Source: a virus | Virus record (IMG/VR): IMGVR_UViG_3300046516_000276 | Location: 1 to 63,289 of that record | Direction: 5' to 3' (one strand) | DNA: 63,289 bases | Shown: positions 1 through 63,289 of the stretch, piece by piece | Numbering within the stretch: the first letter of the stretch is position 1 | How the letters are laid out: each line of letters opens with the position of its first letter | Notes under the pieces: model-generated | Database searches by the model: none | The model's input: the letters and a program-made list of their open reading frames with translations, nothing else | Told to the model about the DNA's origin: nothing | Program-made: the position numbers and the translations under genes

Positions 1-127
1 GCGGCCGACAAGATCAGCAAGCTGCGCCAGATTCTGTGTGGCTCGATCAAGGACACCGAGACCGAGCAGTACGTGACGATCGACCACGCGCCGCGCCTCA
101 AGGTGTTGTTGGAAGTGATCGAGGAAG
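1..127. repeat. Terminal direct repeat, left copy (circular overlap)
   Basis: These 127 bases are identical to 63163-63289. The repeat lies inside a helicase reading frame that continues in frame from the right end to the left end. It therefore marks where a circular genome was opened. A length of exactly 127 is a common maximum k-mer of de Bruijn assemblers, so an assembly overlap is likelier than a packaged terminal repeat. Confidence 0.95.
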
Positions 128-1659: not shown

Positions 1660-2895
1660 ATGAGTAACCTCATTCCTTTCAACGGCGGCGCTGGCGTCCC
1701 GGCACACCTCGACTCGCTGTGGGGCGACGAAGCGAATATCGCTCAGCGCAATGGCATCAATGCTCTGAAGTTCAAGGGCAAGGTGTGGCGCACGTACATC
1801 GACGGCAGCGAGAACGATCTCATGCAGGACGTGAACGGCGACATGGTGCCGGCACAGATCGTGAACATCATCGTGCTCGACCACAACAAGAACCGCAGCC
1901 GCGCGTTTTACGAGGGCGGGTTCGAGGACGGCGCGAACAAGGCGCCGACGTGCGCATCGAGCGATGGCGTGAAGCCGGACGCGAACATCAAGGAACCGTG
2001 TGCACAGACGTGCGCCAGCTGCCCGAACGCGGTCAAGGGTTCCAAGATCAGCGACAACGGCAAGCCGACCACGGCATGCTCGCCGAACAAGCGCGTGGCA
2101 GTCGTCCCGGTCGGTGGCGTCGGCAAGCACGTGCCGCTGCTGCTGCGTCTGGCGCAGACGTCGGTGTGGGACAAGGACAACGCTGAGAACGAAGCGCAAG
2201 GCTGGTTCGCATGGGACCAATACCTCGACTTCCTGCGCGCACGCGGCGCGAAGCACACGGCGGCCGTCGAGACCCGCGCTAAGTTCGACAAGCGCATGGC
2301 CTATCCGAAGCTGCTGTTCTCGGCATCGCGCTGGCTGAACCCCGACGAGGCCGTGGCAGCGAAGGCAATGCTGAACGACGCGTCGGATGAGATCGCCAAG
2401 ATTCTGTCGGGCTCGGGCCTGAACGACGGCGCCACGGGCACGCCGGGCATCCCGTCCGATGGCCTGCCGTCGATTCCGGGCACGCAAGCCGACACGACGA
2501 AGGCCACGAAGGTCGCGGCGGCAACTGCAGCTGTGGACGCAATCGACGCGGTGGCGAAGGCGGAAGCGGCCAAGGCGGACGCAGAAGCCAAGGCGGCGGC
2601 TGAAGTGGCAGCGGCCGAGAAGGCGCGCAAGAAGGCGGCGAAGGAAGCCAAGGCCAAGGCGGCAGCGGAAGCAGCAGCGGCAGCTGCAGCGGCGGCAGCG
2701 GCAGCGGCGGCGGCGGCGGCCGACGAGGACGACGATGACGACGATGACGGCGTGACCGATGTGGTGGCCAAGCCGGTCGCCGCCGCGGCCCCGGCAGCTG
2801 AGCCGATCGCCCCGCAGGCTGGTGTGGGCACGGAATCCAGCACGCCGGACGGTCTGAAATCCCTGCTCGACGGCTGGGACGACAGCGACGAATAA
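1660..2895 (+). CDS. Putative ssDNA-binding protein with Cys cluster, Ala/Lys linker and acidic tail
   Basis: 411 aa. Residues 1-250 form a folded domain with a Cys-rich patch (CAQTCASCP near residue 111, further Cys at about 132) that may bind a metal. Residues 280-360 are an Ala/Lys/Glu-rich helical linker ending in a long poly-Ala run and a D/E stretch. The extreme C-terminus is acidic and aromatic (LLDGWDDSDE), the kind of tail that phage and bacterial SSBs use to recruit replication partners. Its place between exonuclease and primase fits an SSB role. The assignment rests on architecture, not on a recognised OB-fold signature. Confidence 0.55.
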   Translation: MSNLIPFNGGAGVPAHLDSLWGDEANIAQRNGINALKFKGKVWRTYIDGSENDLMQDVNGDMVPAQIVNIIVLDHNKNRSRAFYEGGFEDGANKAPTCASSDGVKPDANIKEPCAQTCASCPNAVKGSKISDNGKPTTACSPNKRVAVVPVGGVGKHVPLLLRLAQTSVWDKDNAENEAQGWFAWDQYLDFLRARGAKHTAAVETRAKFDKRMAYPKLLFSASRWLNPDEAVAAKAMLNDASDEIAKILSGSGLNDGATGTPGIPSDGLPSIPGTQADTTKATKVAAATAAVDAIDAVAKAEAAKADAEAKAAAEVAAAEKARKKAAKEAKAKAAAEAAAAAAAAAAAAAAAAADEDDDDDDDGVTDVVAKPVAAAAPAAEPIAPQAGVGTESSTPDGLKSLLDGWDDSDE

Positions 2896-2903
2896 GCCAC
2901 GTT

Positions 2904-2934
2904 CGGACAAACGGAGCGCCCCTCCGTTTGTCCG
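2904..2934 (+). repeat. Intergenic palindrome copy 1 (13-bp stem, 5-nt loop)
   Basis: CGGACAAACGGAG, loop CGCCC, CTCCGTTTGTCCG: a perfect 13-bp stem with a 5-nt loop. It begins 9 bases after a stop codon and ends 19 bases before the next start. There is no T-tract. It is the only copy of the family outside 42-53 kb and lies directly before an HTH protein gene. Confidence 0.95.
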
Positions 2935-2953
2935 GCTCACATAGGAAGAAAGA

Positions 2954-3310
2954 ATGTCACGCATCATCACCGCCGACCGCCTGCAGCAGATCGCAGACGC
3001 CCACGCAGCGGACCCGAACGCCCCCGGCCCGATCCTCGGCCAACTCATCATCGACGGCAACGTGCCGGTGGAAGCCGTGGCGCGCATGCTGCGCGTGTCC
3101 GATGTCACGATCTACCGCTGGATGTATGGCACCGCGCGCCCGCGCGATCAGGACAAGTTGGACAAATTGGAGAAGCTGCTAACGATTCTCCGCAAAGCCA
3201 AGCGGGCCAAGGAACTGCCGCTCGCCGGCACCGTGCCGCAACGGATCAAGCTGGTCGAAAAACTGGTTATCGCCTACCGCCCACTTCGTCGTCAGTCAGA
3301 AGCGGCATAG
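2954..3310 (+). CDS. Helix-turn-helix DNA-binding protein
   Basis: 118 aa, start supported by AGGAAG 9 bases upstream. Residues 36-57 (VPVEAVARMLRVSDVTIYRW) are a classical HTH with the recognition helix in DVTIYRWMYG. The rest is helical and basic. No enzymatic domain is present, so a small transcription regulator is the likely role. A copy of the dispersed palindrome lies immediately upstream, which makes autoregulation through that palindrome an attractive but untested idea. It could instead be a general nucleoid or replication accessory factor. Confidence 0.7.
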   Translation: MSRIITADRLQQIADAHAADPNAPGPILGQLIIDGNVPVEAVARMLRVSDVTIYRWMYGTARPRDQDKLDKLEKLLTILRKAKRAKELPLAGTVPQRIKLVEKLVIAYRPLRRQSEAA

Positions 3311-3340
3311 AATCTGACGCTCGACATTTCGGGGTCCATA

Positions 3341-6244
3341 ATGAACACGCGTGATTTTCTGCAGCTGCTTACCCCGTCGACGGGGGTGATCTTCGTCGCC
3401 ACGCCCAGTGCGACTGGCGGCTGGGTCAACATCCCCCACCGCACGCTCGATACCGCCGTCGAACTCGTCAACCAGTTGACGTTCGAAGGACGGCCCGCGT
3501 ACTTTTCCATGGCGGGGTTCGAGAAAGACAAATACTGGGACGAAGCAGCGCAGAAGTACCGCCGCCGCACGCAGAGCAACGCCAAGCACATCCGCTCGTT
3601 CTTCCTCGATCTGGACGTCGGGCAGGGCGACCCGCTCAAGTTCGAGTCCAAGGCGCAGGCGCTCACGAGCCTCAAGAGCTTCGTGAAAAAAATCGGCCTG
3701 CCCCGGCCGCTCATCGTCGACTCGGGCGGCGGCATCCACGCGTACTGGCCGCTGGCGCAGGACGTGACCACCTCGATATGGAAGCCGGTCGCCGAGCAGT
3801 TCAAGGCGATCTGCGTGCACGAGCAGTTTCAGGCCGACCGTAGTCTGACCTCGGACGAGGCGCGCGTGCTGCGTGTGCTCGGCAGCTACAACGTCAAGCG
3901 CGGCGCGCCGGTCTCGCTGCTCACCCCTCCCCCCTCCCCGATCTCGTTCGAAGACTTCGCCGGGCGCGTGACGGGCTATGCGGGCCAGCACGGCGTCGCA
4001 ACGGCGGCGGGTAGGTCCAAGGTCGGTGCCCTCGGCGGCGGCCCGGCTGCGGACGTGTGGGGCGCTGGCGACAACCTCGGCGCGACCAACGACCCGCTGA
4101 ACTTCGACCGCATCGTGTTCCACTGCCCGCAGCTGCAGAAGCAGGCGGGCGTGCGCGGGCGTGACACGGGCGAGCAGCTGTGGCGCGCGGGCCTCGGCGT
4201 CGTGAAGTTCTGCGAGCCGCAGCAGGCCGCCGCGCGCGTGATCTCGGACGGCCACCCGGACTTTGACACCGCGCGCACCGAGCAGAAGATCGTCAACTGG
4301 AACGCCGGGCCAACGAAGTGCTCGCACTTCCACCAGCTGCAGCCGTCCATCTGCGAGTCGTGCCCGCACTGGGGCAAGCTCACCTCGCCCGCGCAACTCG
4401 GGCGTCAGGTCGTTGACACCCCTGCCCCGCCCGTGGCGATCACGGTGCCACCGGCCCCGGACGCGATCGATCAGACGCCTGTCACGATCATGCTCACCCG
4501 GCCCGAGAACCCGACCGGCTATTCGCGCCGCGCCGATGGCGCTGTCGTGCGCGAGACGGAGGACTCGGAAGGCCGCCCGCTGTTCGAGGTGATCTGCCCG
4601 TACGACCTGTACCCGCTCGCGATCCGCAGCCAGAACGGCACCGACACGGAGATCGACGAGCACAGCACGTGGCGCGTGCACCTGCCCATGCGCAAGGACG
4701 CCGGCACCGAGCCGCGCGACTTCGTGGTGCCTCTCGGCCTGCTGGCAGATAGCCGCGGGCTGTCCAAGCTGCTGTTCGGCAAGGGCATCGTGCTGCATGG
4801 CGATCAACCGAAGATGACGCTACTCTATATGTCTGCCTACCTGCAAAAGCTGGCCAAGGAAGCGGGCCGCGATAAGCTGTACGAGCGCCTTGGCTGGCAC
4901 GACGAGCACACCACATTCGTGCTGGGCGACCGCCTGATCCACGCCGACGGCACCATGACGCCGCACATGGCGAGCGACGCGATCCGCGCGACGACCAAGA
5001 ACGGCCTCAAGACGGCCGGGACGCTGACCGGCTGGCAGCAGGCCATGCAGTTCTACAACCGCCCCGGCTACGAAGGCCACCGCTTCTTTCTGTACGCCAG
5101 CTTCGCGTCGCCCCTGTTCCACATGAACGACACCGGCAACCGTGGCGCGATGCTCGCGGCCGGCGGCGCCTCCGGGCGCGGCAAGACGACTTGCCTCAAG
5201 GCATGCTCGTCCGTGTGGGGCTCGCCCGATGCGCTGGTGGTGAACGGCAACCGCGAAGGCGCAACCACCAACGCGTTGTACAGTACGCTCGGCACCGTCC
5301 ACTCCCTGCCCTTCCTGCTCGACGACATCACCGAGCGCGACAGCGACGAGCTGCGCCGCCTTGCGCTGAATATCTCGCAGGGCGAAGGCAAGCGCCGCAT
5401 GCAAGCCGACGGCACGATGGTGGGCCGCCTCGACACGTGGGCGAACCTCACGCTCACGTCGACGAACGCCGACACCCTCACCTCGCTCATGTCCACCGGC
5501 AAGGACGTGGACCCCCACCTCATGCGCGTGATCTCGGTCGAGTTTTCGCTCGTCGATGCGCGCGCCGACGCCAAGATCGATGCCGACCGTTTCATCCGTG
5601 CCATGGGACAGAACTATGGCCACGCTGGCGCGATCTTTATGGGGTATATTGCTAAGCACTACGAACAAGTGAAGCGGCTGTACATCAAGAACGTCGAGAA
5701 GGTCGACCGCCTGCTGGCATCGCGCAACGCCTCGGCCGAGCGCTACTGGTCGGCAGTCGTCGCCGCCGCGTACACCGCCGCGCAGATCGCGAGCAAGGCA
5801 GGCATCCTCGCTTTCCCCTACGAGGACGACCTCAAGTGGATGATCAGCCTGCTCACGCGCCAGCGCGAAGCGATCCGCGAGTCGGGCTCGACGCCGGTCG
5901 AATTGCTGAGCCAGTTCCTCGATGGCCACGTGCGCAACACGCTGGCGCTGTCGCCGAAGGGCGCGACGAATCTGGACAACATCGTGATTAAGCCGTTCGA
6001 CGATCTGTTCATCCGGCACGAACTCGACACGGACACGATCTTTGTCGCGCGCTCGGCGGTGATGGCGTACTGCGCGGAGCACCGCACGAGCTTCCGGGCG
6101 TTCGAGCAGAACTTGGAGCGCGACGGCGTGCTGGCCAAGCGCAATGCGCAAAAGGTTCTCGGTGCCGACACCGTGTATTCGAAGGGCCAAACACGTTGCT
6201 GGATGCTCAGCGGCGCGGCCCTGCGTTCAACGACTGGAGTTTGA
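3341..6244 (+). CDS. Primase-helicase: AEP-like primase plus DUF927-type ATPase
   Basis: 967 aa. The N-terminal third resembles archaeo-eukaryotic primases of mobile elements: a DxD-type acidic motif in FFLDLDVG (about residues 88-95) and GGGIHAYW (about 129-136), which supplies the conserved His. The middle has a Cys/His patch (KCSHFHQLQPSICESCPHW, about 327-345). The C-terminal half is a DUF927/superfamily 3-like helicase with Walker A GGASGRGKTT (about 608-617) and Walker B LPFLLDDIT (about 656-664). Together these would prime and unwind DNA at the fork with the family A polymerase at 58109. Priming and helicase functions fused in one chain are common in phage and plasmid replicons. Confidence 0.85.
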   Translation: MNTRDFLQLLTPSTGVIFVATPSATGGWVNIPHRTLDTAVELVNQLTFEGRPAYFSMAGFEKDKYWDEAAQKYRRRTQSNAKHIRSFFLDLDVGQGDPLKFESKAQALTSLKSFVKKIGLPRPLIVDSGGGIHAYWPLAQDVTTSIWKPVAEQFKAICVHEQFQADRSLTSDEARVLRVLGSYNVKRGAPVSLLTPPPSPISFEDFAGRVTGYAGQHGVATAAGRSKVGALGGGPAADVWGAGDNLGATNDPLNFDRIVFHCPQLQKQAGVRGRDTGEQLWRAGLGVVKFCEPQQAAARVISDGHPDFDTARTEQKIVNWNAGPTKCSHFHQLQPSICESCPHWGKLTSPAQLGRQVVDTPAPPVAITVPPAPDAIDQTPVTIMLTRPENPTGYSRRADGAVVRETEDSEGRPLFEVICPYDLYPLAIRSQNGTDTEIDEHSTWRVHLPMRKDAGTEPRDFVVPLGLLADSRGLSKLLFGKGIVLHGDQPKMTLLYMSAYLQKLAKEAGRDKLYERLGWHDEHTTFVLGDRLIHADGTMTPHMASDAIRATTKNGLKTAGTLTGWQQAMQFYNRPGYEGHRFFLYASFASPLFHMNDTGNRGAMLAAGGASGRGKTTCLKACSSVWGSPDALVVNGNREGATTNALYSTLGTVHSLPFLLDDITERDSDELRRLALNISQGEGKRRMQADGTMVGRLDTWANLTLTSTNADTLTSLMSTGKDVDPHLMRVISVEFSLVDARADAKIDADRFIRAMGQNYGHAGAIFMGYIAKHYEQVKRLYIKNVEKVDRLLASRNASAERYWSAVVAAAYTAAQIASKAGILAFPYEDDLKWMISLLTRQREAIRESGSTPVELLSQFLDGHVRNTLALSPKGATNLDNIVIKPFDDLFIRHELDTDTIFVARSAVMAYCAEHRTSFRAFEQNLERDGVLAKRNAQKVLGADTVYSKGQTRCWMLSGAALRSTTGV

Positions 6245-6824: not shown

Positions 6825-7511
6825 ATGCCGACGATCGTTTTCATCAGCCCGAAAGGCGGGGTAGGCAAGACCACATCCTCGCTCGTTCTCGCCACGCAAT
6901 TCGCCAAGCGCGGCTACCCTACGACCATAATTGACGCCGACCCGAACCGCCCGCAAGTGGCGTGGTCGAAGGGCGGCGGAACCGACTATTTGAACATCGT
7001 CGGGGAGGTGGACGAGGACTCGATCATCGACGTGATCGACAAGGCGGCGGCAGCGTCGTCGGTGGTGATCGTCGATCTGGAAGGCTCGGCGGGTAAGGTG
7101 GCGTTGCTGGCCGTCAGCCAAGCAGATCTCGTGCTGATCCCGATGCAGGCGTCCGAACTGGACGCGGCGCAGGCCAGCAAGGCACTGCGCGTCATTCGCG
7201 ACTTCCACCGCATGTCGAATCGCACGGTGCCGCACGCCATCCTGTTCACCCGCACCTCGGGCGCGATCGTCACGAAGACGATGCGATCCATTTGCGACAA
7301 TCTGCGCGAGGCGGGCGTGCAGGTGATGACCACCGACCTGTGGGAGCGCGAGGCGTTCAAGCTCATGTTCTCGTACAACCAGACGCTCGAACAGCTGGAC
7401 TTGAAGGTTGCGCCGAGCCGCGACAAGGCCATCGCCAACGCCGAGAAGCTCATGGCCGAGGTGGCAAGCATGGTGGCGCAAGAGGGGGGTGAGGCATGGC
7501 TGAGCGCGTGA
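6825..7511 (+). CDS. parA: ParA-family partition ATPase (type Ib, small)
   Basis: 228 aa with ribosome site AAGGAG 8 bases upstream. The deviant Walker A KGGVGKTT is at residues 10-17 with signature Lys10. IIDADPNRPQ follows at about 34-43 and Walker B-like VVIVDLEGSAG at about 75-85. There is no N-terminal HTH extension, which places it with the small type Ib ParAs that do not repress transcription themselves. These ATPases form dynamic patterns on the nucleoid that segregate plasmid copies. It overlaps the ParB-like gene by 16 bases, and the tandem array lies directly upstream. Confidence 0.92.
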   Translation: MPTIVFISPKGGVGKTTSSLVLATQFAKRGYPTTIIDADPNRPQVAWSKGGGTDYLNIVGEVDEDSIIDVIDKAAAASSVVIVDLEGSAGKVALLAVSQADLVLIPMQASELDAAQASKALRVIRDFHRMSNRTVPHAILFTRTSGAIVTKTMRSICDNLREAGVQVMTTDLWEREAFKLMFSYNQTLEQLDLKVAPSRDKAIANAEKLMAEVASMVAQEGGEAWLSA

Positions 7512-45726: not shown

Positions 45727-46281
45727 ATGGCTAAGCGTTACCGTGATGCGTTCGCAATTCAGCAGGGTGCATGCAACCCCATCGCAATCGTCAACGCGTT
45801 GAAGAATGCGATCGACGAATGCCGCGCCGAGAACATGGGCACCGATGCAATCAACGGCGACATGGCCGTGCGTGCGATGGTGCACCAGCTGGCGCACCTG
45901 ACGAGCGTGCAGTACTTCGACCAGACTGCATACGAGGCGATGATGGAGCGCGTCGAGAAGGGCAAGCAGGCCGAGATCGAATGGCAACGCGATGAGTCGT
46001 ACATGGGCGCGCGGCCGGCGCAGCCTGTGATCACGTTCGGCAAGAAGGGCGTGGACGTTGTACACAAACGAGCGCCCGAGGTGTACCAGTACATGCCGCA
46101 GTACGCGAAGATCGCAATCGAGCGCATCGACGCAGACAGTGACCTGCGCACGCACGCCAAGCTCGACGAACTGCTCGACGCCTACGCCAAGACGCACGGT
46201 GAACAGGTGGACCAGCACACCCGTGACTCGGCGCACTGCATCTGCAAGCGTCGGTTCCCCGACTTCAAGGTGCAAGCATGA
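45727..46281 (+). CDS. Hypothetical protein upstream of the resolvase
   Basis: 184 aa with AAGGAGG 7 bases before the ATG at 45727. Mostly helical: [56 protein letters not shown]. Its final 20 residues include HCICKRRF. It overlaps the resolvase start as ATGA. It may be a cofactor of recombination or simply an operon neighbour. Confidence 0.68.
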
Positions 46282-46856
46282 GCCGCGTCTTTGTGTATGC
46301 CCGTGTGTCGACGGCGGACCAGACGACTGACAACCAGCTGCGCGAGATCGAGAGCGCAGGGTTCAAGGTCGAGCCGCGGCGCACTGTGACCGAGAGCATA
46401 TCGGGCAGCGTAGCAGCGAGCGAGCGGCCGGGCTTCAGCAAGTTGGTGGATAGGCTGGAGGTGGGCGACGTGCTGATCGTGACCAAGCTCGATCGCTTGG
46501 GCCGCAATGCGATGGATGTGCGCACGACTGTGACGACGCTCACCACGCTCGGCGTGCGTGTGCATTGCTTGGCGTTGGGTGGCATGGACCTGACGAGCCC
46601 CGCCGGCAAGATGACGATGGGTGTGATCAGTGCGATGGCTGAGTTCGAGCGGGATCTGCTGATCGAGCGAACGAACGCAGGCTTAGATCGTGCACGTGCG
46701 CAGGGCAAGACGTTCGGCCGTCCGTCGGCACTGAGCGAGGCGCAGCAGACCGAGGCGCGCATGCGTCTCAACAAGGGCGAGACAGTCTCACAGCTGGCTC
46801 GTGAGTTCAAGACTAGCCGCACCACGATACAGCGGCTGAGAGATAGGGGAGTGTGA
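46278..46856 (+). CDS. Serine recombinase, resolvase/invertase type
   Basis: 192 aa, the length of Tn3/Gin-type recombinases. Catalytic Ser11 is in [16 protein letters not shown] with Arg9. [15 protein letters not shown] supplies further active-site Arg residues, and the E-helix region [18 protein letters not shown] (about 115-132) precedes a C-terminal HTH ([17 protein letters not shown]). Such enzymes resolve multimers or invert segments; they do not normally integrate phages. In a genome with par and rep, dimer resolution is the natural role. No clear res site was identified. Confidence 0.93.
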
Positions 46857-47065
46857 TGTACCCGTCCCGCAAGATACCGCCGGGGGCTAAGTGCATCACA
46901 CCGAAAGAGGTGATGGCCAAGCTGGCGCGCCGTAAGAGTTGGTTATGGGGCAAGGTGAAGAACGATCCGACGTTCCCACGACCGATTCATTACGGGCCGC
47001 GTGCGACGGTGTTTATCGAGCAAGAGATAGACGCATGGCTTGAGCGCCTTGCGAACCAGCAGTAA
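46856..47065 (+). CDS. AlpA-like small DNA-binding protein
   Basis: 69 aa from the ATG overlapping the resolvase stop. Layout of AlpA/excisionase-type winged helix proteins: ITPKEVMAKLARRKSWLWGKVKNDPTFPRPIHYGPRATVFIEQEIDAWL, with the typical xxFPxPxxxGxRxxxFxxxEIxxWL pattern. These act as regulators or directionality factors beside recombinases. The coupling to the resolvase suggests that it controls recombination direction or expression. Confidence 0.82.
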   Translation: MYPSRKIPPGAKCITPKEVMAKLARRKSWLWGKVKNDPTFPRPIHYGPRATVFIEQEIDAWLERLANQQ

Positions 47066-51658: not shown

Positions 51659-51682
51659 TGTAGTTTTTTGTATGAGTAGTCG

Positions 51683-51711
51683 TTAGCTATTCTAACTAAT
51701 GCAGTTATAAT
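51683..51711 (+). promoter_or_regulatory. Sigma70-like promoter of the DUF3150-MoxR-VWA module
   Basis: TTAGCT (51683-51688), spacer 17, TATAAT (51706-51711): a perfect -10 with a 3-of-6 -35. It lies 20 bases before the ATG at 51732, in a short AT-rich gap, with the ACGTGAGGAAAGGAAA leader but no palindrome. Confidence 0.6.
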
Positions 51712-51731: not shown

Positions 51732-52880
51732 ATGAGTCTGCGTAATTCGACCCTTCTGTATCGCCCGTCCCTGTCCATCTGGACCGCCCGCAAGCTCGAC
51801 AAGACGCAGAGCGTTCTCGTCGCGCACAACGCTGACGCCAAGGAAGGCGTGGCCAACGTGCACAAGCAGCTGCTGCCGGAGTGCAAGGAACTGGAGAACG
51901 TTACCAAGTGGGCGACTCAGTTCCGCACGTTCATCTACACGTCGACGCTGCCGTGGGATGACAGCGGTTGGCGCATCGGGCAGGTGGCTCGCCACATGGA
52001 GTTCATGCAGGAGATCGGCGACCGCATCACACTCGGCAACCTGTTGGTGGATGCCCTCATGGGTGTGTACCAGTCGCGCGTCGAGGAAGCCAAGTTCACG
52101 CTGAACAAGATGTTCAACCCGATGGACTACCCGAGCGTGCAAGAGGTGCGCAGCCGGTTCAGCTTCGAGGTGAACGTGATGCCGATGCCTGCGGCGTCGG
52201 ACTTCCGCGCGGTCGAGGGTATCCCCAAGGCCGAGGTCGAGAAGCTGGAGAAAGCGGCGGCCGATGCTGTCGAGGCGCGCATCGCCGATGCCATGAAGGA
52301 GGCGTACGAGCGCCTGTACGAAGTGGTGTCGGCGATGGCGAACACACTGGAAGGGTACGACGGCGGCACGATCAGGAAATTCAACGACTCGTTGGTGGAT
52401 AACATCGCCAAGATCGTGAAGGTCATGCCTGCGTTGAACTTGACCAACGACCCGAAGCTTGCATCGCTCGCGAGCGACGCGGAGGAACTGGCGAACTATG
52501 CGGCCATGGACCTGCGCCAGCACGCACCGACTCGCGAGGCAGCGATGAACGAGGCGCGCAAGTTGCAGATGAAGTTCAAGGGTGCGATCGCTGCGTCGAT
52601 TGCCGACACGAAGGTGCCGAAGGCCAAGGCCCCGGCGAAGAAGGTGGCAGCGGCACCGCAGAAGCCGACGCCTGTCGGGAAGAAGGCGATCGAGCAGGCC
52701 AAGGCCACGGTGGCGAAGAAGGCCCCGGCCAAGAAGGTCGCGGCGAAGAAGGCCGCGCCCGCGCCGAGCGCGCCGAAGCGCCGAGCGAAGCCGACCGTAG
52801 TCGCCGCGCCGATGGACGACATGCCGATGGCCGCCGCGCCGAACAAGCGCGCGCTGTTCGCCGACATGCTGAGCGTGTAA
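51732..52880 (+). CDS. DUF3150-like protein with basic Ala/Lys tail
   Basis: 382 aa. Residues 1-280 fit the DUF3150 layout: NSTLLYRPSLSIWTARKLDKT, then long helices and a conserved middle (SRFSFEVNVMPMPAASDFRAVEGIPKAEVEKLE). DUF3150 proteins of phages are typically encoded beside an AAA ATPase and a VWA protein, exactly as here. Residues 290-365 are a Lys/Ala/Pro tail resembling histone H1 (AKAPAKKVAAAPQKPTPVGKK), likely nucleic-acid binding. Role unknown; probably the partner of the MoxR ATPase. Confidence 0.72.
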   Translation: MSLRNSTLLYRPSLSIWTARKLDKTQSVLVAHNADAKEGVANVHKQLLPECKELENVTKWATQFRTFIYTSTLPWDDSGWRIGQVARHMEFMQEIGDRITLGNLLVDALMGVYQSRVEEAKFTLNKMFNPMDYPSVQEVRSRFSFEVNVMPMPAASDFRAVEGIPKAEVEKLEKAAADAVEARIADAMKEAYERLYEVVSAMANTLEGYDGGTIRKFNDSLVDNIAKIVKVMPALNLTNDPKLASLASDAEELANYAAMDLRQHAPTREAAMNEARKLQMKFKGAIAASIADTKVPKAKAPAKKVAAAPQKPTPVGKKAIEQAKATVAKKAPAKKVAAKKAAPAPSAPKRRAKPTVVAAPMDDMPMAAAPNKRALFADMLSV

Positions 52881-52887
52881 GAAAACC

Positions 52888-52918
52888 CGGACAAACGGAG
52901 GTGCACTCCGTTTGTCCG
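52888..52918 (+). repeat. Intergenic palindrome copy 11
   Basis: CGGACAAACGGAG, loop GTGCA, CTCCGTTTGTCCG: perfect 13-bp stem between the DUF3150 and MoxR genes. The following leader differs from the common one. Confidence 0.95.
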
Positions 52919-52973
52919 GCAATTGGCGGTAAATAACCACCCTACCTAATGCGTTTAAAGGATAACACCAATC

Positions 52974-54089
52974 ATGGCTGTCAAGCTCAAAGAACTCCCG
53001 CCGATCCTCGTTCGTAACTACATCGCCAAGACGAACACGGCGATCACCAGTAAGCCCGCGCTCGGCAAGACGCAGACCATCGAACTGTTCGTCAAGCAGA
53101 TGCAAAAGCGCATCAAGGGTTTCAAGGGCTGGGCGTTCTATGCCCCCACGATGTCGCCCATGGACATCCAAGCGAGCGCGCCGGACGCTGAGACCGGCAA
53201 GCTGCGGCTCTACAACAACGAGGCGCTGCCGAACGCCTACACCGACCCGGACGTGCAAGGCGCGCTGTTCATCGACGAAATGTTCAACGCCGACCAAGCG
53301 ACGCTCAAGCTGCTGCAGAAGTACGTCAACGGCGAAGACATGTCGGGCGTTCTCCGCAAGCCCGATGGCGTGATGGTGATCGCAGCAGGCAATCGCTTGA
53401 GCGACAAGTCGAGCGTGCAGCAGCATGGCCGTGCGTTCATGTCGCGCTTCGAGCAGCTGGAGGTCTACAGCGACGCGCAAGACAACACGGAGTACGCCGC
53501 CAAGAACTCGTGGCACCCGAACGTGCAGACCTTTTTCAAGGACAACCCGGCGCTCATCGACAACTACGACGAGGTGTTCGAGACGGCGGGCAGCGCAGCG
53601 GGCACCAAGCTGGCAGGCGCGCAGCGCAACGACACGATGACCGAGGAAGGCAAGCGCGGCATTTGGGCGAACATGCGCAGCTGGGAGCGCATCAGCCGCA
53701 AGGAATACGCCGCTGACGAGCTTGGCACGCCCCTCGTGCTGGCTGAGGCTGTCGGCAACCTCGGCAGCGGCGTGGGGGCCGCATACGAGGCCCACAAGCG
53801 CAACCTCGCGAAGCTGCCTGCGTTCGAGGCTGTGATGGCTGATCCGCGCGGCGTGGCGATCCCGACGGCGATGGACGAGCAGTATGCGCTGACGATGGTC
53901 GTGGCGCTCAAGTGCGCGGCCGAGCAGATGCCCAAGGTCAAGGCGTTCGGTGAGCGCATGCCGTTGGAGTTGCAGGCTGCTATCCTGCGCCACCTCATGC
54001 AGCGCAAGAACTTCGACGTGAGCGGCACCGATGCGTATGTCGACTGGATCAGCAACCCGAAGCTGTCCAAGCTGCTGAACGGACGTTGA
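52974..54089 (+). CDS. MoxR-type AAA+ ATPase
   Basis: 371 aa. Walker A SKPALGKTQT with Lys32 (about 26-35) is a variant of the usual GxxGxGKT. Walker B GALFIDEMF is at about 95-104, sensor 1 VIAAGNRLS at about 134-142, and an arginine-rich region follows (HGRAFMSRFEQLEV). MoxR ATPases remodel partner complexes together with a VWA-domain adaptor that carries a metal-ion site; the protein at 54487 supplies that. Likely a chaperone for a phage or host complex. Confidence 0.85.
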   Translation: MAVKLKELPPILVRNYIAKTNTAITSKPALGKTQTIELFVKQMQKRIKGFKGWAFYAPTMSPMDIQASAPDAETGKLRLYNNEALPNAYTDPDVQGALFIDEMFNADQATLKLLQKYVNGEDMSGVLRKPDGVMVIAAGNRLSDKSSVQQHGRAFMSRFEQLEVYSDAQDNTEYAAKNSWHPNVQTFFKDNPALIDNYDEVFETAGSAAGTKLAGAQRNDTMTEEGKRGIWANMRSWERISRKEYAADELGTPLVLAEAVGNLGSGVGAAYEAHKRNLAKLPAFEAVMADPRGVAIPTAMDEQYALTMVVALKCAAEQMPKVKAFGERMPLELQAAILRHLMQRKNFDVSGTDAYVDWISNPKLSKLLNGR

Positions 54090-54092
54090 TCG

Positions 54093-54293
54093 ATGCCGAT
54101 GTTCAAGGTCCAAGTGGACAAGCTTGTGGTCTACGAGGTCGAGGTGGAGGCCGACACGCGCGACGCTGCGCTGCTGTCGGCCGTCGAGATCATCGTGTCC
54201 AGCGAACACAAGGCGTCGTACCTCAAGGAGTCGTACGACTACGAGGCGAACTACGCTGAAGAAGTGAAACCGAAGACGCGGAGGAAGGAATGA
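54093..54293 (+). CDS. Small DpnD/PcfM-like protein, copy A
   Basis: 66 aa. Pattern FKVQVDKLVVYEVEVEADTRDAALLSAVEII: a beta-beta-alpha unit as in small proteins of the DpnD/PcfM kind. It overlaps copy B by ATGA. It lies between the MoxR and VWA genes. Confidence 0.6.
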   Translation: MPMFKVQVDKLVVYEVEVEADTRDAALLSAVEIIVSSEHKASYLKESYDYEANYAEEVKPKTRRKE

Positions 54294-54487
54294 ACCAGCA
54301 GCCCCTGAAGGTGTTCGAGGTCGAGATCGAGGAAACGGTGCGATACACGTACTCGATCCGCGCGAAGGACAAGACGCAGGCGAAGCGCTTGGCTTCGCTG
54401 GCCCATCGTGATGACGGTGCCGATCGCGCAGCTGCGAACACTGAAGTCACCGAGCAGGACGTAACGTACATCAACGAGGTGGCGTGA
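54290..54487 (+). CDS. Small DpnD/PcfM-like protein, copy B
   Basis: 65 aa, similar layout to copy A (KVFEVEIEETVRYTYSIRAKDKTQAKRLASLA). A diverged tandem duplicate. One-base overlap with the metallopeptidase-VWA gene. Role unknown. Confidence 0.6.
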   Translation: MNQQPLKVFEVEIEETVRYTYSIRAKDKTQAKRLASLAHRDDGADRAAANTEVTEQDVTYINEVA

Positions 54488-55656
54488 TGAGCGAGAGCGT
54501 CGCAGCTGCAGCCGCAGTGCGGATGACGATTCGCCATCCGTTCTGGACGGAGATTTACTACTCGATGACGGTCATCGAGTCGGACGGCTCGGATGGTGTC
54601 GAGACGCAGGCCACCGATGGCCGCAACCTGTGGATCAACAAAGCGTTCTTTCAGTCGATCCCGCTCGATCAGCAGGTGGCCGAGATCGTGCACGAGTTGT
54701 GCCACAAGATCTTCTTGCACACCACGCGCCGGGGCCACCGTGACCCGAAGCTGTGGAACATCGCATGCGATTACGTGATCAACGCGATGATGAAGAAGAA
54801 CGGTTTTCAGCTGGGCGCGGACTGGCTGCTCGACATGCAATACGACGGCTGGCTCGCCGAGGCTGTGTATGCCGATCTGGTGAAGAATCAGCAGGACCAG
54901 CAGAAGCAGCAGGGCGGCGGGCAGGGCAAGGGCCAGCCGCAGCCGGGCCAAGGGCCGCAGATGCCGAAGGGCCGCGAGGACATCCGCGAGCCGCAGGGCA
55001 CGCCCGAGGAAAAGGACAAGCACGAGGACGAGGTGAAAGCGCTCGTCGATCGCGCGATCGCCAACGCGAAAGCCATGGGCAACATGCCCGCGGGCATCGA
55101 GCAAGGCGCGGCGGAGGCGTTCAAGTCGCCGGCTGAGCCGTGGTACAACCACTTGCACCGCTACATGCAGTCCCTTTGCGTGTCGCAGTATGACTGGGCT
55201 CGCATCAACCGGCGCGCGCTGATCACGCATGGCTTGTTCGCACCGCTGCATTACTCGGAAGCGCTCGGCGATGTGGCGCTGTTCATCGACACGTCGGGCA
55301 GCTGCTTCGCCGCAGCTGAGCAGGCCCGGTTCGCTGAGCACCTGAACGCGATCATGGCCGAGGCCAAGCCGCGCCGCATCATCGTCAACTACTTCGACAC
55401 GAAGGTGTACGAGGGCGAGGTGTACGACGCGGGCGAGATCGACATCGCGACGAAGCCGAGGGGAGGTGGAGGCACGTCGTTCGTCCCCATCTTCGAGTGG
55501 ATGGATGAGCAGGGCATCGCGCCCGAGGTGTGCATCATCCTGACGGACTTGATGGGCCGGTTCCCGAAGGATGAGCCGGAGTGTCCGGTAGTGTGGGCCA
55601 ACACCATGCCGTATGGCGAGGCCCCGTTTGGTGAGACGATCTATCTTGTTGACTAA
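54487..55656 (+). CDS. DUF2201-type metallopeptidase-like plus VWA-like protein
   Basis: 389 aa from the ATG at 54487. The N-terminal domain has a zinc-peptidase helix EIVHELCHKIFLH (HExxH at 69-73) and a following NIACDYVIN (91-99) that may supply the third ligand. A Gln/Gly/Pro-rich linker (about 135-170) leads to a VWA-like domain with metal-site motif LFIDTSGSC (about 265-273) and a late LTDLMGRFP. It is the natural partner of the MoxR ATPase at 52974. Whether the peptidase site is active, or serves as a structural lid, is unknown. Confidence 0.85.
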   Translation: MSESVAAAAAVRMTIRHPFWTEIYYSMTVIESDGSDGVETQATDGRNLWINKAFFQSIPLDQQVAEIVHELCHKIFLHTTRRGHRDPKLWNIACDYVINAMMKKNGFQLGADWLLDMQYDGWLAEAVYADLVKNQQDQQKQQGGGQGKGQPQPGQGPQMPKGREDIREPQGTPEEKDKHEDEVKALVDRAIANAKAMGNMPAGIEQGAAEAFKSPAEPWYNHLHRYMQSLCVSQYDWARINRRALITHGLFAPLHYSEALGDVALFIDTSGSCFAAAEQARFAEHLNAIMAEAKPRRIIVNYFDTKVYEGEVYDAGEIDIATKPRGGGGTSFVPIFEWMDEQGIAPEVCIILTDLMGRFPKDEPECPVVWANTMPYGEAPFGETIYLVD

Positions 55657-55918
55657 CGATCGCGGCGTGATGGAGGCGCACCTTGCCCTGCTGGGCTGGG
55701 TGCCCTTCGACTGGGACAAGGGTGGGGCGCATAACCCGGCGATGAGTGACATCGTGGTGTGGGTGACGCAGTTCCCGGATAACGACGACGACATCGGGTG
55801 GACAAAGCGCAGCATGTTCCCGACCGCGCTGGACCCGGAGCCAGCCGAATGGGTAGCAGACGATGCAGTGTTTTGGCGGCTCGCCAAGGCGTTGACAGAA
55901 GATGAGAGGTTCACGTGA
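55646..55918 (+). CDS. Tandem paralogue A, small hypothetical protein
   Basis: 90 aa if started at the TTG at 55646, which aligns its N-terminus with that of paralogue B (xxxxNxxxMEAHLxLxGWVP); the first ATG in the aligned core is 55670. The frame overlaps the VWA gene by 11 bases. Core motifs MEAHLALLGWVPFDWD and DDAVFWRLAKALTEDERF. Function unknown. Confidence 0.6.
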   Translation: MLTNDRGVMEAHLALLGWVPFDWDKGGAHNPAMSDIVVWVTQFPDNDDDIGWTKRSMFPTALDPEPAEWVADDAVFWRLAKALTEDERFT

Positions 55919-56217
55919 AGATCGTCAATCGTGAAGCCATGGAGGCGCACCTGACGTTGGCGGGCTGGGTTCCATGTGTGTATGGCTCGATCGGCGCGCG
56001 CAAGGGCAACATCGTCTGGTACATGTACCGTGAGTTCAAAAAAGCCGGCGGGGGCGAGAGCTACAAGTTCGGGCACTCGCTGATCGCCGAAGCAGGTGAG
56101 CGACATGACCTCGAAACGTGGTTCTGGAGTGATGAGTTGTTCTGGCCGCTGGCGCGGCACCTGCAGACTGATCAGGTGCGCATCAAGACCGAGAGCGCGA
56201 ACAGCGCACTGATTTAA
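55915..56217 (+). CDS. Tandem paralogue B, small hypothetical protein
   Basis: 100 aa with a GTG start overlapping the previous stop (GTGA). Shares MEAHLTLAGWVPCVY and SDELFWPLARHLQTD with paralogue A, so the two arose by duplication. Contains a central aromatic strand NIVWYMYREFKK. Unknown role. Confidence 0.65.
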   Translation: MKIVNREAMEAHLTLAGWVPCVYGSIGARKGNIVWYMYREFKKAGGGESYKFGHSLIAEAGERHDLETWFWSDELFWPLARHLQTDQVRIKTESANSALI

Positions 56218-57832: not shown

Positions 57833-58107
57833 TGACTGTCAAATCCATGGTCGACGTGACCCTCGAAAATTTAGTAGAACTTGTCATCAAGAGCGGCGCG
57901 GGCGCGAAGATGCCGCCGCAGGACGTGCTCGCCAAGCAGTTCAGCGTGAGCCGCACGGTGCTGCGCGAGGCGCTTGTCGTGCTGGAATACCTCAAGGTGC
58001 TGCATGTGCGCCCGAAGATCGGCACGACCGTCAACGCACTGGATCAGTGGAAAACGCGCAACCACGACATCATCGAGTGGCGCGCTCGTGCGGAAGGAAA
58101 GAAGTAA
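57832..58107 (+). CDS. GntR-type winged-helix regulator (DNA-binding domain only)
   Basis: 91 aa. Residues 8-70 are a GntR winged helix: LENLVELVIKSGAGAKMPPQDVLAKQFSVSRTVLREALVVLEYLKVLHVRPKIGTTVN, including the family mark SRTVLREAL before the wing. There is no effector-binding domain; the protein ends 20 residues later. It is the first strong regulator candidate of this arm and is coupled to the DNA polymerase gene, which starts one base after its stop. Binding sites are not known. Confidence 0.85.
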   Translation: MTVKSMVDVTLENLVELVIKSGAGAKMPPQDVLAKQFSVSRTVLREALVVLEYLKVLHVRPKIGTTVNALDQWKTRNHDIIEWRARAEGKK

Positions 58108-58108
58108 A

Positions 58109-59986
58109 ATGGACCTCGTGACGCTCGACTTCGAGACGTTCTACGGGGACGACTACACGCTGTCGAAGCTCACGACAGAGGCGTACGTTCGCGACCCGCG
58201 TTTCGAGTCCATCATGGTCGGCATCAAGATCAACAACGACCGGCCGTTTTGGGTGCCGGGGCCGTCGATCAAGCTGCACCTCGACTCCCTGCAGCTGCAC
58301 AAGAAAGCCGTGCTGTGCCATCACGCGCACTTCGATGGCTTCATTCTCACGCACCACTACGGCATCTATCCGCGCATCTATTTCGATACGCTCGGCATGG
58401 GGCGCGCGCTGTTCGGCGCCCATGGCCGCTTGTCCCTCGACAAGTTGGCAGAGCGCTATGGCATCGGCAAAAAAGGAACAGAGGTACACAATGTCAAAGG
58501 CATGCGGCTGCAAGACTTCTCGCCGGCGGGGCTTGAGCGCTACGGCACTTATTGCTGTACTGACGTTCAGCTTACTTACGATCTGTTCAATAAAATGGTG
58601 GGCCAGTTCTCGCGACACGAACTCGAACTCAACGACCAGATCATCCGAATGTTCACAGAGCCAAGTCTCATGCTCGACGAGGCCATGCTCGAACAGTACC
58701 GACAGGATTTACGCAACGAGAAAATTACTCTGCTCCTGAAGTCCGGCGCGCAGGCTGACGATCTCATGAGCAATGAGAAGTTCGCCCAGCTGCTGCGCGA
58801 CAACGGCGTGGAGCCGCCCCTCAAGATCAGCCCGCGCACGCAGAAGCTCACCTATGCGTTCGCGAAGACGGATCAGGGCATGCAGGCGTTGCAGGAGCAC
58901 CCGGACGAGCGTATCCAGATCATCGTGGAGGCGCGCCTCAAGAACAAGACGACGATCGCGGAGCGCGGCGCCGAGCGGCTGATCGCCATGGGTCGACGCG
59001 GGCCGGCGACGATTTACCTGAAGTACAGCGGCGCGGCCGGCACGCACCGGCTCAGCGCAGGCGACAAGATTAACTGGCAGGCATTCAAGCGCGGCAGTGC
59101 CACGCGCAAGGCCGTCATGGCGCCCGAGGGCGAGGAGCTGGTGGTCGGCGACTCGTCGAACATCGAGGCGCGCCTGCTCGACTGGCTGGCGGGCCAAGAC
59201 GACATGGTTGAGGTGTACATCAAGGCCGACAAGAAGTTGGGGCCTGACATGTACTGCGTGATCGGCGGCCTGATCTACAAGACCGATGTGGTCAAGGGCC
59301 GCAGCGATCTCGACAACGACCGTCGGCAGATGGGCAAGGTGACGAAACTCGGGCTCGGTTTTGGCATGGGCGACGACAAGTTCATCGTCTCCGTGCGCGG
59401 GCAGGCCAAGGACAAGGACGGCCGGCCGCTCGTGCTCGAACGGGACTTCGCCCACTACATCGTGCATGACGTGTATCGCGGTAAGCACCCGCATGTTGTG
59501 AAGCTCTGGAAGCGCGCCGAGCACGCGCTTGAATGTATTCTGAAAGGGCTGGAAGATATGCCTGTGGACCCGCGCGGCGTCGTTCGGACGTGCCGCGACG
59601 GTCTCGTGATGCCGGGCGGAATGAAGATCAACTACCCCGAACTGCGTCGAGAAAAGAACGACGAGGGCAGGTGGCAGTGGACGTTCTGGAACGGCAAGAT
59701 GCGCGAGCATCTGTACGGGGCCAAGGTGGTCGAGAACATCATCCAGTGCCTCGCGCGGCTGGTGGTGTTCGCACAGTGTCTGGAAACGCGTAAGGAGGCG
59801 GGGGCGCTCGCGCAGTGGGTCCATTCGGTCCACGACGAGGGGATTTTCCGCACCCAGCAGTTCTACGCGCCGTGGTTGCAGGAAAGGCTGTTGGCGAATA
59901 TGCGGGTGTCGCCGGACTGGGCGCCGGGCTTGCCGCTCAACAGCGAAGGGGGTTTCAACCGGCGGTACGGGTTGGCCAAGTCGTAA
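58109..59986 (+). CDS. DNA polymerase, family A, with 3'-5' exonuclease
   Basis: 625 aa from the ATG at 58109. The N-terminal exonuclease begins with LDFETFY (D7, E9). The polymerase has motif A VGDSSNIEARLLDWL (about 346-360), motif B DRRQMGKVTKLGLGFGMG (about 405-422) and motif C VHSVHDEG (about 572-579). This is the size and order of T7-like and other podoviral family A polymerases. It would copy the genome with the primase-helicase at 3341. The start follows the GntR stop by one base. Confidence 0.95.
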   Translation: MDLVTLDFETFYGDDYTLSKLTTEAYVRDPRFESIMVGIKINNDRPFWVPGPSIKLHLDSLQLHKKAVLCHHAHFDGFILTHHYGIYPRIYFDTLGMGRALFGAHGRLSLDKLAERYGIGKKGTEVHNVKGMRLQDFSPAGLERYGTYCCTDVQLTYDLFNKMVGQFSRHELELNDQIIRMFTEPSLMLDEAMLEQYRQDLRNEKITLLLKSGAQADDLMSNEKFAQLLRDNGVEPPLKISPRTQKLTYAFAKTDQGMQALQEHPDERIQIIVEARLKNKTTIAERGAERLIAMGRRGPATIYLKYSGAAGTHRLSAGDKINWQAFKRGSATRKAVMAPEGEELVVGDSSNIEARLLDWLAGQDDMVEVYIKADKKLGPDMYCVIGGLIYKTDVVKGRSDLDNDRRQMGKVTKLGLGFGMGDDKFIVSVRGQAKDKDGRPLVLERDFAHYIVHDVYRGKHPHVVKLWKRAEHALECILKGLEDMPVDPRGVVRTCRDGLVMPGGMKINYPELRREKNDEGRWQWTFWNGKMREHLYGAKVVENIIQCLARLVVFAQCLETRKEAGALAQWVHSVHDEGIFRTQQFYAPWLQERLLANMRVSPDWAPGLPLNSEGGFNRRYGLAKS

Positions 59987-62152: not shown

Positions 62153-63289
62153 TCGTACACACACCATCCAAGAGCCTCTTGCTCAAGCTGAGGCCGAAGA
62201 AGCTCGCTGAAGTGATGGCGATCTTCCCGTCACACAGCAAGTTGATCGACCACGACGGGCACAACCTCGCGGTGCCGCACAACCTCGCCGTGGTGAAGGT
62301 GCTGCGCAACATGGGGATCAAGGCCCCGAGCCCGATCCGGTATTACTACAGCTGGCCCCGGCCGGCGCGTTTCTCCAAGGTGTTCGATCACCAGTACGCC
62401 ACCGCGGACTTTCTGACGATGCACCCGCGCTGCTTCGTCTTGAACGAACAGGGCACGAGCAAGACGGCATCGAGCATTTGGGCCGCCGACTATCTCATGT
62501 CGCTCGGGCGCGTGAAGCGCGTCCTGATCGCTGGCAAGTTGTCGACGCTCGATCACGTGTGGCGTGATGAAATTTTTGACGTTGCGATGCACCGCACCGC
62601 TCTCGTGCTGCACGCCGATGCCGAGAAGCGCCGCGCGCTGTTGGCTCAGCCGGTGGACTTCTACATCACGAATCACGATGGCCTGAAAATCCTCGCGAAC
62701 GACATCAAGGCGCGCAAGGACATCGACCTGATCATCGTGGACGAGGCGAGCGCATTCCGTAACGCGCAGACCGGGCTGTACGACGTGCTGAAGGACATCA
62801 GCAAGGGCCGCAAGCTGTGGCTGCTCACCGGAACGCCGTGCCCGAACGCGCCGACGGACGCATGGGCGCTGGCCCGGCTCGTGGACCCCACGCGCGTGCC
62901 GCAGTTTTTCACGCAGTTCAAGCGCAAGACGATGCAGCAGCTGAGCACGTACAAGTGGGTGCCGATGCCGGGCAGTCACGAGACGGCGTTCGAGGCCATG
63001 CAGCCGGCGATCCGCTTCAAGAAAAGCGAGTGCCTGTCGCTGCCGCCTGTCACGTACCAGACGCGCCAGTGCGATCTTTCGAAGGACCAGAAGGACGCGT
63101 ATCAGGCGATGAAGAATCACCTCGTGCTCGAAGCGAAGAACCAGCAGATCACGGCGGCCAATGCGGCCGACAAGATCAGCAAGCTGCGCCAGATTCTGTG
63201 TGGCTCGATCAAGGACACCGAGACCGAGCAGTACGTGACGATCGACCACGCGCCGCGCCTCAAGGTGTTGTTGGAAGTGATCGAGGAAG
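62149..63289 (+). CDS. SNF2/DEAD-like helicase, N-terminal part (continues at 1-579)
   Basis: 380 codons to the window end; on the circle the gene joins 1-579 to give about 530 aa. Motif I is a variant Walker A, NEQGTSKTAS (99-108, Lys105), motif II is DEAS (198-201) and motif III is LLTGTPCPNAP (225-235). The last 42 codons duplicate the first bases of the window. Coupled to VRR-NUC by ATGA. Such nuclease-helicase pairs process recombination intermediates during replication. Confidence 0.92.
   Translation, partial: MIVHTPSKSLLLKLRPKKLAEVMAIFPSHSKLIDHDGHNLAVPHNLAVVKVLRNMGIKAPSPIRYYYSWPRPARFSKVFDHQYATADFLTMHPRCFVLNEQGTSKTASSIWAADYLMSLGRVKRVLIAGKLSTLDHVWRDEIFDVAMHRTALVLHADAEKRRALLAQPVDFYITNHDGLKILANDIKARKDIDLIIVDEASAFRNAQTGLYDVLKDISKGRKLWLLTGTPCPNAPTDAWALARLVDPTRVPQFFTQFKRKTMQQLSTYKWVPMPGSHETAFEAMQPAIRFKKSECLSLPPVTYQTRQCDLSKDQKDAYQAMKNHLVLEAKNQQITAANAADKISKLRQILCGSIKDTETEQYVTIDHAPRLKVLLEVIEE
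63163..63289. repeat. Terminal direct repeat, right copy
   Basis: Identical to 1-127. Removing one copy gives a 63,162-bp circle with an intact helicase frame. Confidence 0.95.

Follow-up and report, generated by a model that had tools for sequence, protein, structure and literature searches.

A MoxR-type ATPase, an HExxH-VWA protein and a DUF3150-like protein form a gene module of phages and plasmids with a possible role on replicating DNA

Midasin/Rea1, RavA-ViaA, CbbQO, NorQD and CobST all couple an AAA+ motor of one broad type to a partner with a MIDAS/VWA domain. Their substrates are pre-ribosomes or metalloenzymes, with CobST, NorQD and CbbQO serving the assembly or maturation of their own targets, and we know of no member of these systems that carries DUF2201_N or DUF3150. 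In jumbo phages, a MoxR ATPase is paired with a metallopeptidase-vWA protein, and for the pair a part in virion assembly and processing has been proposed (Iyer et al. 2021, PMC7824862); in 25 N4-like phages, gp24 and gp25 are middle genes and belong to the core of unknown function (PMC4193335); and transcript mapping of a plasmid noted that the MoxR and VWA genes of pCAR1 are conserved in R478, Rts1, SXT and R391 (PMC2642839).

Here we describe a locus with a motor and partner of the same broad type, joined by a third protein, in the virus record IMGVR_UViG_3300046516_000276; by the window we mean the whole stretch of DNA analysed, which is this one record of 63,289 bases. The ATPase and zincin-VWA genes have the order and strand of gp24 and gp25 in N4, where they are part of the Schitoviridae core, and in G7C: homologues of both proteins adjoin on one strand, and G7C gp25 and the window protein share 31% identity (E 3e-32). 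The jumbo-phage pair has the same domain pairing (PMC7824862), and in PA5oct the ATPase and VWA genes lie 4 kb apart. Unlike the window, neither the G7C genome nor PA5oct yielded a detectable DUF3150-like protein. An earlier note on this DNA, written from its letters alone, had taken the role of such pairs in phages to be undescribed, a view that these precedents (PMC4193335, PMC7824862) do not support; what looks new is that the pair is linked to a third protein and also occurs with it on plasmids. DUF3150 is named in no paper of the literature searched, which takes in few subscription journals; within that literature a trio common to phages and plasmids therefore seems not to have been described. 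The search likewise returned no paper on N4-like phages with von Willebrand, or on cobS with IncC or TraDIS, and MoxR and vWA are absent from the main text of the CRISPRi-ART phage screens. Of the five core genes of unknown function in N4-like phages (PMC4193335), two lie in the module, and once the phage and plasmid sets are considered together, two families without an explanation become a single problem open to test.

The module and its genome

The ends of the window (1-127 and 63163-63289) are identical 127-base terminal repeats, and the window is therefore probably a complete genome. Genes for terminase, portal, major head protein and a 2,312-aa virion-type protein occupy the - strand at about 15-39 kb, and those for primase, DNA polymerase, exonuclease and helicase the + strand; the module is also on the + strand, opposite to the structural genes examined and a few kb before the DNA polymerase gene (57974-59986). 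ERF and SSB families were not found in this genome. The nearest terminase in the phage collection searched is that of Pseudomonas phage Rollin (45% identity), and no nucleotide relative was found in that collection. A further nucleotide search for relatives gave only short matches, around the Lys/Ala tail described below. A helicase-like gene at 7-579 aligns only to the middle-to-late part of its family and so probably runs on across the contig junction. A ParA/VirC1-like ATPase (6825-7511), a serine resolvase (46278-46856) and an AlpA-like regulator (46853-47065) are of kinds frequent on plasmids, making a phage-plasmid lifestyle possible.

Five open reading frames make up the module, at the place given in the earlier note: a DUF3150-like gene (51732..52880), then, after a gap of 93 nt, an ATPase gene (52974..54089), two small genes that we call s1 (54093..54293) and s2 (54290..54487), and a zincin-VWA gene (54484..55656), all on the + strand. 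The last four overlap or almost abut, which suggests that they may be translationally coupled. The two neighbouring genes immediately 3' of the module, 55638-55918 and 55915-56217, clearly arose by duplication of one another (0/1000 shuffles as good; alignment z 11.7).

The promoter of its own that had been ascribed to the module, with a perfect TATAAT, does not stand: the hexamer occurs at chance level (2 in the window against 2.4 expected) and lacks a -35 partner, and no sigma-70-like pair was found at the first gene. Upstream of the module lies the palindrome GTTAGctattCTAAC (51682..51696), the sole exact match within the window; when the 74-nt leader was shuffled 20000 times, it arose once. 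A relative, L008, has one palindrome of this type (7093-7107), likewise upstream of its DUF gene, and the element is a possible operator or other regulatory site. Between the DUF and ATPase genes lies a perfect 14-bp hairpin (52887..52919, + strand; -27.4 kcal/mol, z -5.3), with a T-rich tail on the - strand only. Hairpins stand at the equivalent place in L008 and in a second relative, L009, and none was found there in L010 or L022; this one is possibly an attenuator or an RNA-processing site.

The encoded proteins

The ATPase (371 aa) belongs to the N4 gp24 family and matches phrog_1297, annotated 'ATPase', at 1.6e-37. Conserved in it are P28/G31/K32 of Walker A, the FIDE of Walker B near D101, N140 of sensor 1, R158 and R235; with an arginine finger and a sensor 2 beside both Walker motifs and sensor 1, the protein has the intact motif set of the MoxR type to which it had been assigned. 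Searched against solved structures, the family profile finds midasin best (1.6e-34). The window protein reaches the Pfam cut-off of neither AAA_5 (13 bits against the 22 required) nor AAA_3, and relatives in MinM2 and on plasmids lie above that of AAA_5. In the homologue of L009 (7200-8303), FIGE replaces the FIDE of Walker B; the sequence is a metagenome contig, and the change may be real or an assembly error.

The last gene, which starts at ATG 54487, overlapping the s2 stop, or at GTG 54484, encodes a member of the N4 gp25 family (phrog_1314, 5e-91). The proposed union of HExxH metallopeptidase-like and VWA-like domains in one protein is borne out by two Pfam matches above their cut-offs, DUF2201_N, a putative metallopeptidase (117.8 bits, 8.9e-34), and the VWA-like DUF2201 (71.5 bits, 8.6e-20). 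The motifs run HExxHxxxxH ... WNxACD and, in the MIDAS, DxSGS ... T ... D; the HExxH(4)H and the key MIDAS residues are invariant in an alignment of 42 rows, and HExxH is present in 79/79 loci. The predicted structure (mean pLDDT about 88) has a C-terminal integrin-I/VWA fold (Z 11-12 over residues about 256-390), with MDN1-MIDAS among the fold matches. The family is named 'HNH endonuclease' in PHROGs (phrog_1314) and in many phage records (NC_054970, NC_071039 and NC_049456 among those with such names), or 'homing endonuclease' in some. We considered and rejected this naming, which the DUF2201_N/DUF2201 match contradicts, so that the label looks like a propagated error.

For the DUF3150-like protein (382 aa), the proposed likeness survives as remote homology. 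A profile of 29 sequences, compared by hhalign with seven plasmid DUF3150 (PF11348) proteins, one of them the pCAR1 protein that itself matches PF11348 at 8.3e-92, aligns over most of its length (probability 94%, E 1.3e-7, 232 columns). PF11348 gave no match at E<=1 in an hmmscan of the window protein, and in a one-genome search it scored 11.1 bits (E 0.0047), short of the gathering score of 24.9. Below the cut-off and yet homologous to genuine members, the protein is, as judged from these profiles, a remote DUF3150 relative and not a Pfam member. Its AlphaFold2 model (mean pLDDT 81.6) combines a mixed alpha/beta N-terminal part with a long helical bundle, for which no clear PDB match emerged and no Foldseek match below 0.16; structure matches of the bundle reach Z 10.9 at most, within the range of common arrangements.

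The histone-like Lys/Ala tail described for this protein is indeed there, 16 K and 24 A being counted among 74 residues, but it is private to the window phage and predicted to be disordered (pLDDT < 50). The closest relatives (46-60% identity) pass directly into the C-terminal KRALFADML or a variant of it, the short helix RALFADML being common to them and the window protein, and the tail is, on this alignment, an insertion in the window phage only. We therefore set it aside as a clue to nucleoid targeting, missing as it is from all relatives and disordered.

The description of s1 and s2 as duplicated fits more loosely. The two proteins, of 66 and 65 aa, overlap at an ATGA, and both match one small protein of L008 (for s1, alignment score 64, 0/1000 shuffles as good). 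Likeness between them is weak, with 9/1000 shuffles as good, leaving s2 a probable paralogue of s1. In shape s1 is DpnD/PcfM-like; s2 matches PF14207 (DpnD-PcfM) at 0.0047, under the cut-off.

Linkage in phages and on plasmids

Scanning IMG/VR with a profile of the VWA protein gave 80 loci, and in 71 of them the VWA gene has an ATPase gene on its own strand no more than 8 kb away. Where at least 4 kb of upstream sequence was available the ATPase gene was beside VWA in 53/54 loci, so the conserved synteny that the earlier note had named as its check is present. A DUF3150-like gene occurs in 41/80, and viral loci with all three genes are arranged ATPase-DUF-VWA (32), DUF-ATPase-VWA (8) or ATPase-VWA-DUF (2), counts that include some near-duplicate loci (L009 and L021 are one contig). 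The trio thus stays linked despite three different orders, and this linkage across loci upholds the proposal that a MoxR-type ATPase, its HExxH-VWA co-factor and a third, DUF3150-like protein make up one module. Among the 37 trios that remained after dereplication, the three proteins have correlated pairwise distances (Mantel 0.77, 0.83 and 0.89; 0/2000 permutations reach them). The correlation shows joint inheritance; a linked block passed on as a unit would also produce it, and it does not alone establish interaction. In the VWA tree, two-part and three-part forms are interleaved and the plasmid sequences require at least two label changes on starred branches. Near the plasmid clade, some of the IMG/VR loci may be pieces of plasmids wrongly classed as viral.

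By tblastn the VWA protein matches 65 plasmid records and the DUF protein 39, mainly from Burkholderiales, and trios of the window type sit on Burkholderiales and Rhodovastum plasmids. In each of the nine plasmid regions examined the trio is arranged ATPase-DUF-VWA. Five of these nine Burkholderiales-type loci have type IV secretion genes next to them; the five share their gene order and are probably one lineage. On a Burkholderia plasmid (L019), an IS21 element splits the DUF3150-like gene of the trio (2715-5900).

A second plasmid set, comprising pCAR1 (ORF101-103), IncC and others, also has three components, usually in the commonest phage order: an ATPase, a PF11348-type DUF3150 protein and a longer protein with an N-terminal HExxH and a C-terminal VWA domain. 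Profile-profile comparison finds the DUF3150 and ATPase components homologous to those of phages. The VWA protein, in which HExxH precedes VWA as in the phage protein, is by contrast about 580-640 aa long, NorD/CobT-like and not DUF2201, and homology of the two types outside the common HExxH region is weak. The genomic setting differs too, as this set, unlike the phage set, adjoins RecT or Bet plus a lambda-type or YqaJ exonuclease (7/7 regions). Relatives of DUF3150 extend to more than 1000 plasmid records of the collection searched, mostly conjugative.

In phages the company is different. Among 89 proteins within 6.5 kb of the module, picked by ORF length from about 50 dereplicated loci, the leading PHROGs by raw count are DNA polymerase (15), DnaB-like helicase (15), primase/helicase (14), helicase (8) and exonuclease (6); the 25 most frequent of 101 neighbour PHROGs are DNA polymerase, primase, helicase, exonuclease or unknown, and no structural family is among them. 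Chosen by length and read without a background rate, this neighbourhood of mainly replication genes is suggestive of a replication role. PF00476 polymerases occur in 19/27 genomes checked and RecT in only 2/27, and we rejected RecT as a common partner, rare as it is in phages though it stands beside the plasmid trio; its linkage is not carried over to phages, and no single recombination partner is therefore indicated. Among the neighbours scanned, none gave a Pfam match to a third component of the MoxR-vWA ternary conflict systems (VMAP, iSTAND, FtsH or beta-propeller), and bpMoxR scored 13.6 bits, where 27 are required; the third component here is DUF3150-like.

A possible role on replicating or recombining DNA

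The reading we favour, at a probability of roughly 0.5, is that the module encodes an ATP-driven ring with a MIDAS co-factor, and that this machine remodels proteins, and perhaps also cuts them, on DNA undergoing replication or recombination. The MoxR-type protein would form the motor ring and the zincin-VWA protein would be its co-factor, its MIDAS, like that of midasin, docking a partner or substrate which its HExxH domain perhaps cuts; the helical DUF3150-like protein, often absent, may be a third subunit or a substrate adaptor. Made together with the replication genes, such a machine would load, remodel or remove proteins in phage replication or recombination complexes. We infer that the three proteins form a physical complex and that its substrate is DNA-bound. 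Of the targets suggested earlier, the replisome fits the gene neighbourhood best, and the host nucleoid and a defence complex have no direct support here, PADLOC being negative for the window proteins.

Could the module instead build the virion? On this account the ATPase and zincin-VWA protein would be a chaperone and peptidase that assemble and cut structural proteins (PMC7824862), an idea in keeping with the case, cited in that paper, of an archaeal virus whose tail assembly needs a MoxR-vWA pair, and with the four RPP1 virion proteins encoded near gp24/gp25 homologues (PMC4193335). Yet conjugative plasmids, which make no virions, carry the trio, which argues against a purely virion role and for one at the level of the genome; the phage neighbourhood is dominated by replication rather than virion genes, and in the window the module and the structural genes examined are on opposite strands. 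Virion assembly is thereby weakened as a general explanation, and we consider it unlikely. We give similarly little credence to counter-defence or host takeover, in which the machine would dismantle or cleave host proteins, defence complexes included. The patchy third component, the spread across unrelated phages and conjugative plasmids that must survive in a new host, and the occurrence of MoxR-vWA modules in predicted conflict systems (PMC7159879) all speak for it, but the ATPase and VWA genes belong to the core set of 25 N4-like phages (PMC4193335), which is not typical of accessory counter-defence genes, and this core status argues against a purely accessory role; PADLOC, which covers defence rather than counter-defence, matched neither the window proteins nor the corresponding proteins of Burkholderia plasmids.

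Least probable, and in our view improbable, is that the module assembles or matures one particular metalloenzyme or envelope machine, on plasmids perhaps the type IV secretion machinery. The pCAR1 ATPase does resemble CobS (2.8e-36), far under the equivalog cut-off, and secretion genes do adjoin the five Burkholderiales-type loci; against this, those loci with their common gene order probably count as a single lineage, and the top phage neighbour families include no common metalloenzyme or secretion gene. A bolder form of the reading that we favour, distinctly speculative and less likely than it, would be a three-part machine, exchanged between phages and conjugative plasmids, that removes or degrades proteins bound to replicating or recombining DNA, the equivalent among mobile elements of midasin and of DNA-protein-crosslink proteases.

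One homologue of the zincin-VWA protein, on a Variovorax plasmid (L017, 6950-8233), has lost the HE of HExxH and kept its MIDAS, and offers a natural test of the need for peptidase activity.
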